Assembly: GCF_024298825.1 (NCBI RefSeq)
Contig: NZ_CP101153.1
Location: forward strand, 3,410,001 to 3,474,000
DNA: 64,000 nt
Direction: 5' to 3'
Source of the DNA: Haloglomus salinum
GTDB lineage: Archaea; Halobacteriota; Halobacteria; Halobacteriales; Haloarculaceae
Position 1 is the first letter of the stretch. Every line of letters starts with the position of its first letter. A program made the translations under genes and the position numbers. The notes beneath the pieces are model-generated. The model did not search any database. It saw only the letters and a program-made list of their open reading frames with translations, and was not told the DNA's origin. Below, one piece after another: positions 14,469-15,993 of this stretch.

Positions 14469-14497
14469 CGTTCCAGTTTCACTCTGCCCGGCTTGAA

Positions 14498-14506
14498 TTT
14501 TTAATT
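14498..14506 (+). promoter_or_regulatory. TATA box of the HNH leader transcript
   Basis: The A/T run tttttaatt lies 24 bases after the LLM stop. Its centre is about 26 bases before 14528, the 5' edge of the folded leader, so transcription should begin at the first base pair of that fold. Confidence 0.6.
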
Positions 14507-14527
14507 GATCGGGCATCCAGAACGCGT

Positions 14528-14594
14528 GGAGCGCGAGCGACTCGTGAGAGTCCGGTGGTGGAAGCACCGAACTCGCGCTTCTCGGAGTGAGAAG
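14528..14594 (+). ncRNA. Candidate structured leader RNA of the HNH gene (three-way junction plus hairpin)
   Basis: Four Watson-Crick helices can be read by eye. P1 pairs 14528-14537 with 14572-14581 (10 bp, one G-U). P2 pairs gactc 14539-14543 with gagtc 14548-14552 and closes on a GTGA (GNRA) tetraloop. P3 pairs cggtg 14553-14557 with caccg 14565-14569. P4 pairs cttctc 14578-14583 with gagaag 14589-14594, ending one base before the ATG and competing with the base of P1. P2 and P3 are nested in P1 as a compact three-way junction. It could control the HNH gene's translation or be an RNA partner of it. The fold is seen; the function is inference. Confidence 0.55.
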
Positions 14595-14595
14595 C

Positions 14596-15303
14596 ATGTC
14601 CGGATTAGAAAGCGACGATGAAAACGGTACCGAGAGTACGATCTGTCCGACCTGCGGCCGAGACGATTTCGGCTCGGAGAGTGCAATGAAGGTTCACCAC
14701 ACGAAGGCACACGGTGAGAGCATCGCTGGAATGGAAGTAGAATGTGACTGGTGTGGCTCGTTGGTGCGCCGGAAACCGTACGCTATCGAAAACCGTGAAC
14801 GGATTTTCAGCGATCTCGACTGTAAGGGTGCCTGGCGGCAGGAGAATTGGACGGGTTCGGCGACGCCCAAGTGGAAGGGTGGACCAGTTACTGTCTCCTG
14901 CCATCAGTGTGGTGATGAGTTCGAGCGCCGGCGTGATCAGGTCGAGAAGTACGAGCGCTCGTTCTGCAGTTCGACGTGCCTCGGTAAATGGCGGTCAGAG
15001 GCACAGCGTGGGAGCGATAATCCCGTCTGGACCGGTGGGACAGCAATCAGGTCAGCCGTGCGCCAGCAGATTGGAGACGAGCCCTGGGAGACAATTGCGG
15101 AACGCGAACGAGAGGAGTCGTGTGAGGCCTGTGGAACCACGGAGACGGGCGATGGTAGAGCACTAGCCGTACATCACATCGTCCCTGTGATGGCCGGTGG
15201 CTGCAATGCCAGTGAACTTCTGATGACACTCTGTCCGGCGTGCCACCGCCGGGTGGAAGCCTACACACGGCGAATCGTGACTCCGGTTCTGACCGACGAC
15301 TGA
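14596..15303 (+). CDS. HNH endonuclease with multiple zinc-finger modules
   Basis: A 235-aa putative homing-type DNA endonuclease. In order: a C2H2 finger (CPTCGRDDFGSESAMKVHHTKAH), a degenerate treble-clef module (CDWCG...DLDCKGAW), a second one (CHQCGDEF...FCSSTCLGKW) followed by GSDNPVWTGG, then the HNH nuclease with zinc cysteines (CEACGTTET, LAVHHIVPVMAGG, NASELLMTLCPACHRRVE). The repeated CxxC...FCS..C.G.W.S pattern and (N)P.W.GG spacer are typical of phage and intron HNH homing enzymes. ATG 14596 is used; GTG 14587 lies inside hairpin P4. Codon use and GC are less extreme than neighbouring genes, which suggests acquisition. No RuvC domain is present. Confidence 0.85.
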   Translation: MSGLESDDENGTESTICPTCGRDDFGSESAMKVHHTKAHGESIAGMEVECDWCGSLVRRKPYAIENRERIFSDLDCKGAWRQENWTGSATPKWKGGPVTVSCHQCGDEFERRRDQVEKYERSFCSSTCLGKWRSEAQRGSDNPVWTGGTAIRSAVRQQIGDEPWETIAEREREESCEACGTTETGDGRALAVHHIVPVMAGGCNASELLMTLCPACHRRVEAYTRRIVTPVLTDD

Positions 15304-15341
15304 GAGAAAAGCCTATTACTTGATGCTACCGGCGCTCGAGC

Positions 15342-15808
15342 GTGCCCAACCGCTCGACGGTGCTGTTCGGTCAGTCCCATGACCGCGCCGACCGGTGGCT
15401 CGCTGCTGGTGCCGGCCTCGGACTTCTCGTGGTCGCCACGGTCGCGAACTCCGCCCCTGCGGCGAGCTATCTGGTGCTTCTGGGTGCGGCGGCCACTGCC
15501 ACACAGACCGCCGTTGTCGGCGGTCTGCTCCCGGGGCTGGCACTGACGGCCGCACCCGCGCTGGCGCTCCTCGCCGCGTTCCTGCCTATCGGGTCCGTGA
15601 GACAGGTACTGCTCACCGCGATGGGGCTCCTCATCGTCGGTGTGGCGCTGGGGGCCGCCGCCACGCTGGTCACGGTGGCGTTGATCGGTGGCAGCGACCG
15701 CCCCCCCGGCCGGTCACCCGCCCGGAGATCACTGGCCTCCTCGTCTGTGCGTCGTCGGGTCTAGGGTTCCTGCCCGTCTTCGGACTTCGATTCGTCCCGA
15801 TAATCTGA
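15342..15808 (+). pseudogene. Small membrane protein with an apparent frameshift at a C7 run
   Basis: Frame 1 begins at GTG 15342 (PNRSTVLFGQS) and encodes three or four hydrophobic segments (LGLLVVATVANSAPAASYLVLLG; ALTAAPALALLAAFLPIG; VLLTAMGLLIVGVALGAAATLV). After 15701-15707 (seven Cs) this frame turns into Arg/Ser-rich nonsense and stops at 15764. The -1 frame continues as a credible membrane tail, RPEITGLLVCASSGLGFLPVF, stopping at 15808. One extra C would give a continuous protein of about 155 aa. This may be a true mutation, slippage or a homopolymer sequencing error. Function unknown. Confidence 0.65.
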
Positions 15809-15993
15809 CCGGACTGTACCCAGTGAAAACGCCGAGGAAATTCAAATTCCAGATGATAACCAATATGGGGCAGAAATAAGAATATTGGACACAACAGAAT
15901 TCTGGAAGATAGGCGAACCGTTGCCTGGCAATCATCCTGGCCCCGGCGAACGGAGGGTAAGACACTTGCCGTCGCTCTAGCAACGTCGCGTCG

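Follow-up and report, generated by a model that had tools for sequence, protein, structure and literature searches.

The window, meaning here the whole stretch of 64,000 nucleotides of Haloglomus salinum DNA that was analysed (contig NZ_CP101153.1, positions 3,410,001 to 3,474,000), lies in a one-contig genome of 4.19 Mb that belongs to the order Halobacteriales. It carries an HNH endonuclease gene that is preceded by a segment, 14528-14595, in which a three-way junction of the helices P1 to P3 is followed by a hairpin, P4, that reaches the start codon (Table 1). The initial annotation had described a 10-bp P1 enclosing two hairpins, one of them with a GTGA loop, and a 6-bp hairpin directly at the ATG that shares bases with P1. 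The coordinates of P1, P2 and P3 were confirmed in the sequence, as was the sharing of bases; the hairpin at the ATG is present as well, with a stem of 7 bp instead of 6. The last base of P4 is the base before ATG 14596, and P4 and the outer part of P1, which have 14577-14581 in common, are mutually exclusive.

Table 1. Features of the leader, the HNH gene and the insertion (window coordinates)
Feature	Position	Strand	Description
TATA-like box TTTTTAATT	14498-14506	+	~26 nt upstream of the 5′ base of P1 (14528); seen in the sequence
P1, 5′ strand	14528-14537	+	pairs with 14572-14581; 10 bp, one G-U
P1, 3′ strand	14572-14581	+	14577-14581 common to P1 and P4
P2 hairpin	14539-14552	+	5 bp, 14539-14543 with 14548-14552; loop GTGA
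P3 hairpin	14553-14569	+	14553-14557 with 14565-14569; CGGTG-GTGGAAG-CACCG
P4 hairpin	14577-14595	+	7 bp, 14577-14583 with 14589-14595; loop GGAGT
Shine-Dalgarno-like GGAG	14584-14587	+	inside the P4 loop, 8 nt before the ATG
Coding part of the element	14596-14632	+	ATG to +37; purine motif in codons 9-10, G opens codon 13
HNH endonuclease gene	14596-15303	+	235 aa; Cys-rich N-terminal modules; HNH domain ~15121-15255
Insertion	14469-15939		~1.47 kb holding the leader, the HNH gene and another ORF; three congeners lack it at the syntenic position

Folded as a single sequence, the window leader has an MFE of −33.9 kcal/mol, against −25.7 ± 3.2 kcal/mol for shuffled versions (z −2.5), and 3 of 200 shuffles fold as well as it does. 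Taken alone, this thermodynamic signal is modest, and the fold is judged real because of covariation among the relatives of the leader.

In the HNH protein, Pfam detects the HNH domain at residues 176-220 (E 5.5e-9) and no other domain. The catalytic motif, VHHIVP...C..CH, is intact and conserved in the alignment. The protein matches viral HNH families (PHROG 1271 and 8446), and a search of genome contigs with it returned five distant bacterial or archaeal matches. The three congeners that lack the insertion keep its flanks, between which 111, 183 or 1000 unrelated nucleotides stand in its place, and the leader and the HNH gene were therefore probably gained together. The same insertion holds a possible membrane-protein ORF at 15342-15764. 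At the same intergenic spot, the congener G705 (L191) has ~1 kb of unrelated sequence, so that the site seems prone to insertions.

Other HNH genes with the leader were found on L034/L184, on L021 and on the viral contig L188. On L034/L184, the HNH gene and its leader lie between provirus tail genes, and the same two tail genes are adjacent, with no insert, in the Halorubrum virus Humcor1. An HNH domain with its catalytic motif, together with occupied and empty sites in relatives, would fit a putative free-standing HNH homing endonuclease. The compact mobile nuclease that had been proposed, along with a comparison of empty sites in related genomes as its check, is supported by the three congeners and by Humcor1.

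A family of leader RNAs in the Halobacteriales

A BLAST search with the leader DNA over 392 Halobacteriales genomes gave a few partial matches; of these, L047, L048 and L049 have the complete leader architecture, and the genes behind it do not encode HNH proteins. A first covariance model was built from the window copy together with L048 and L049 and matched 147 of the 392 genomes at E ≤ 1, and a second one, built from 100 matches, matched 191 of the 392 at E ≤ 0.01, the E-values of both models being rough. The latter matches are distributed over 64 of the 95 genera, with up to seven copies in one genome and a single copy in the genome of the window. A phylum-wide sample of 393 genomes, for which the number taken from outside the order is not given, contained 40 matched genomes, all of them within the Halobacteriales and none outside.

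Copies of the leader are found on plasmids of, among other hosts, Halorubrum lacusprofundi (for instance pHLAC01, NC_012030, 380178-380249), Haladaptatus, Natrinema, Halalkalicoccus, Halorientalis and Halovenus, and five IMG/VR viral contigs carry full copies; a further pattern scan of viral contigs gave no match. Searched with cmscan against Rfam 15, the leader matches no family above the gathering threshold, the only hit being a tRNA elsewhere in L119. The tRNA gene on that stretch (L119:520-584), which also holds a leader copy, is compatible with an integrated element. Literature searches found no haloarchaeal leader of the same kind.

The alignment of 100 copies that was fitted by the covariance model has 94.6% of its cells paired, against 74.3% after shuffling. 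Double changes are found in 24 of the 24 pairs, with changes on both sides, and amount to 388 cells, against 106 when shuffled, while the covariation score is 0.474, against 0.146 for shuffled and at most 0.070 for slid partners. Since an alignment fitted in this way is biased towards the structure, the count was repeated on 20 copies that MAFFT had aligned without regard to structure, five rows of this alignment being shifted; here the version with the long P1 has 18 double-change cells against 5.9 in shuffles, and the version with P4 has 23 against 7.3, both beating all shuffles and slides by this measure. RNAalifold, applied to the plain MAFFT alignment, recovered P3 alone, a result that probably reflects the competition between P1 and P4 and the shift of some rows. 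The stem sequence of P3 is almost invariant across the family. The P3 loop and most of the loop bases are conserved only moderately, and a small-molecule pocket is therefore not evident.

In P1 and P2, G-U pairs are more frequent than A-C mismatches (81 vs. 23), which points to RNA made from this strand. P4, which has almost no G-U pairs and in which A-C is commoner (2 vs. 29, or 1 vs. 15 once similar copies are removed), does not share this preference. Selection on the RNA of one strand is therefore seen in P1 and P2 only, and P4 might instead be a palindrome in the DNA.

Covarying pairs in P1 to P4 had been named as the test of the leader among homologues, and the outcome, in which all 24 pairs covary, did not refute it; with the TATA-like box ahead of P1, the view of a folded, promoter-linked leader stands. 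Comparison across genomes shows the window leader to be a member of a structured 5′-UTR RNA family, previously uncatalogued, that is present in about half of the sampled Halobacteriales. Its transcription as a 5′ UTR is suggested by a peak of A/T richness that, across 95 copies, lies 33-25 nt ahead of P1, a position that fits a TATA box setting the transcript start near P1.

In 100 of the 100 copies examined, an ATG that opens an ORF lies 0-4 nt after P4, a position that is partly built in, as the covariance model includes the ATG. SD-like 4-mers are found in the P4 loop region of 36 of 73 copies, against 19 expected. The features of the coding region from the ATG to +37 lie outside the covariance model. 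Positions +26 to +29 from the ATG are A-rich across the copies; codon 9 is GAA (35) or CAA (20), with no instance of GAG or CAG; and the later codons of the same ORFs favour GAG (393 vs. 197) and CAG (133 vs. 52). The first base of codon 13, +37, is a G in 91 of 94 copies, and the amino acid that this codon encodes varies (D, G, E, A or V). As judged from these codons, the constraint on +26 to +37 bears on the nucleotides of the RNA, whose spacing from the start codon is constant. No pairing partner of this frame-fixed motif was found in the window or in any of the copies, and conservation ends ~13-14 codons into the gene. Two candidate pairings were rejected: a fifth helix in the coding region, P5, forms in one register in only 16 of 65 nonredundant copies, the other registers giving 3-8, and a pairing between P4 and codon 12 (−2 with +36), which is near the top of the pair scan, tracks the split between two subfamilies.

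Genes downstream and divergent regulators

The 99 genes downstream of the leader fall into ~64 protein clusters. Among the recognisable cargo are HNH proteins, LAGLIDADG proteins with an HTH, tyrosine recombinases, SWIM zinc fingers, DUF7344, a PD-(D/E)XK protein and a Csm3-like RAMP protein; the majority of the cargo proteins are unknown, and no ribosomal protein is found among the scanned genes. The leader is not tied to HNH genes, as the same RNA stands before unrelated genes and most HNH homologues found in the Halobacteriales have no leader.

In 44 copies, the element continues in frame into a protein of at least 70 aa. In 55 of the 100, the first ORF is short and a longer one begins near its stop, mostly with an overlap of 1-11 nt; a few of these partner ORFs may be spurious. 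A divergent gene for a small regulator begins ~100 nt upstream in 76 of the 100 copies (58 of the winged-helix type and 18 of a second type), and annotated plasmids independently confirm it. No divergent regulator lies beside the leader copies of the window, L034/L184 or L188.

Several of these arrangements recur. In L087, L100, L142 and L163 (G244, G268, G135 and G141), the leader precedes a Csm3/RAMP-like protein of ~290 aa, which may point to mobile elements that carry a type III-like or RAMP-based system. In L143, L144, L146 and L161, the leader is followed by a short leader ORF ending in an SD-like sequence and then by a LAGLIDADG endonuclease with an N-terminal HTH. An 804-aa PD-(D/E)XK/Cas4-like protein follows a 33-codon leader ORF in L131 (568-2979), and on Haladaptatus plasmids (L202, L206, L207, L208 and L209) the leader heads a conserved operon whose four to six small genes, all unknown, keep a similar order.

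Competing helices and a probable control of translation

In most copies, P1 extends beyond its six model pairs by four pairs, on CUUC bases that also form the 5′ strand of P4. Across 78 nonredundant copies, pairing at these four positions reaches 87, 96, 72 and 85%, against 79, 84, 62 and 59% in shuffled versions, and falls at a fifth position to 26%, below the 37% of the shuffles. The six model pairs of P4 all covary as well. As the extension of P1 and P4 covary over the same CUUC, two mutually exclusive helices are both conserved. The predicted thermodynamic ensembles hold both helices (mean 0.69 for P1 and 0.40 for P4), and that of the window copy, predicted at 37 °C and without molar salt, strongly favours P1 (0.97, against 0.02 for P4). 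The earlier proposal that the leader could switch between two folds of P1 and P4 is therefore backed by conserved conflicting pairs and by ensembles that populate both.

From these comparisons, it seems likely that the leader is a portable cis-acting translation switch of genes of haloarchaeal mobile elements, used here by a mobile HNH gene. Transcription would start at the 5′ side of P1. A full-length P1 would take the CUUC strand and thereby leave the SD-like loop and the AUG free, which would be the ON state; upon opening of the outer four pairs of P1, P4 would form, placing the SD-like sequence in its loop and bringing the foot of its stem up to the AUG, which would be the OFF state. The balance between P1 and P4 may be set by a protein or a ligand that recognises P2, P3 and the junction. 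As the short first ORF (23-70 codons) is usually overlapped by the next gene, translation of the latter would be coupled. In the window, the mobile HNH gene would carry a leader copy with its own promoter and without a regulator gene. The switch model leaves the coding motif up to +37 unexplained.

A wider reading is put forward tentatively, at somewhat less than even odds: the leaders would form an order-wide class of haloarchaeal RNA switches in which a three-way-junction sensor opposes a start-codon hairpin and which, with the coding motif to codon 13 and the divergent regulator, would make up a portable two-layer cassette, acting on transcription and translation, for viral, plasmid and homing-endonuclease genes.

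The best surviving alternative, which we regard as unlikely, is a constitutive element of translation or mRNA stability, whose fold would stabilise the 5′ end and place the ribosome at the AUG with no switching. It would agree with the single architecture found before functionally unrelated genes and with the dominance of P1 in the window copy, and as haloarchaeal mRNAs are frequently leaderless (PMC8241225), leadered mobile genes may need such help. However, covariation follows the overlap of P1 and P4 exactly, over four pairs, and is lost at the fifth; P4 covaries along its whole model length; and a hairpin that would bury the SD-like loop and abut the AUG is odd for an enhancer. Considerably less probable is that the element in part, chiefly P4, is a DNA operator palindrome of the divergent regulator, with its symmetry selected in the DNA. 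The frequency of that regulator gene and the A-C mismatches of P4, nearly devoid of G-U, would suit an operator, but P1 and P2 retain G-U and avoid A-C, a three-way junction is not operator-shaped, and the leaders of the HNH genes retain P4 where there is no regulator.

Very little weight is given to a conserved recombination or cassette site, at which different genes would be joined to the module behind one promoter. One module with ~64 cargo clusters, and conservation that stops shortly after the gene begins, are what such a site would produce; yet the copies are highly diverged with compensatory changes instead of being homogenised, and the reading frame and the distance from the ATG to +37 are preserved.

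IscB-type proteins consist of RuvC, a bridge helix and HNH. The leader resembles the HEARO/OMEGA RNA that accompanies them in that a structured RNA lies immediately upstream of an HNH-containing gene, a likeness from which the initial annotation had drawn the idea of an RNA-using nuclease while stating, correctly as far as Pfam shows, that the protein has no RuvC. An RNA-guided or RNA-using nuclease is highly improbable here. The leader is not bound to nucleases, as the same RNA precedes dozens of unrelated non-nuclease genes and is missing from most HNH homologues, and it has no match to the HEARO model of Rfam 15 (cmscan); in the protein, the NCBIfam model guided_IscB reaches 27.7 bits, against a cut-off of 175, over the HNH segment at residues 173-222 only. 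As a general explanation, HEARO/IscB is refuted. That the fold arose by chance ahead of an ordinary HNH gene, in favour of which the single-sequence z-score of only −2.5 might be cited, is refuted by the matches in 191 of 392 genomes and by covariation in 24 of 24 pairs.

Relation to known leaders and significance

With translational riboswitches, the leader shares a conserved, structured junction domain in the 5′ UTR and two exclusive helices on a shared strand, one of which would control the SD-like sequence and the AUG. It differs from them in that it precedes many unrelated mobile genes instead of the genes of one pathway, in its conservation into codon 13, and in having no known ligand. 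According to a paper of 2021, the fluoride riboswitch was the only experimentally determined natural archaeal riboswitch (PMC8241225). RBS-sequestering hairpins are found at the T4-type homing endonuclease genes I-TevI, segB and mobE (PMC2988022), where, as here, the ribosome-binding sequence is enclosed in a hairpin located where a mobile endonuclease gene begins; unlike these, the leader belongs to a conserved four-helix family that also precedes non-nuclease genes, and it has a promoter of its own and a three-way junction that competes with the hairpin. The archaeal ribosomal-protein leaders of S15, eL15 and L4, which include examples from Halobacteria (PMC7247131), are likewise rare predicted cis-regulatory RNAs of archaea, but the genes behind the present leader are not ribosomal and it has no Rfam match. 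With the free-standing viral HNH endonucleases of PHROG 1271 and 8446, the window gene has the protein family and the pattern of mobility in common, and differs in its leader, which most of the homologues lack. As a kind, the element is a cis-regulatory leader; its breadth, its portability and the motif in coding phase are unusual.

Few archaeal cis-regulatory RNAs are known or even predicted (PMC7247131), and a leader that about half of the sampled Halobacteriales genomes carry and that Rfam 15 lacks would rank among the most widespread of them. The conflicting, covarying helices P1 and P4 make a direct and testable prediction, and the leader gives a handle on the timing of expression in haloarchaeal proviruses, plasmids and homing endonucleases.
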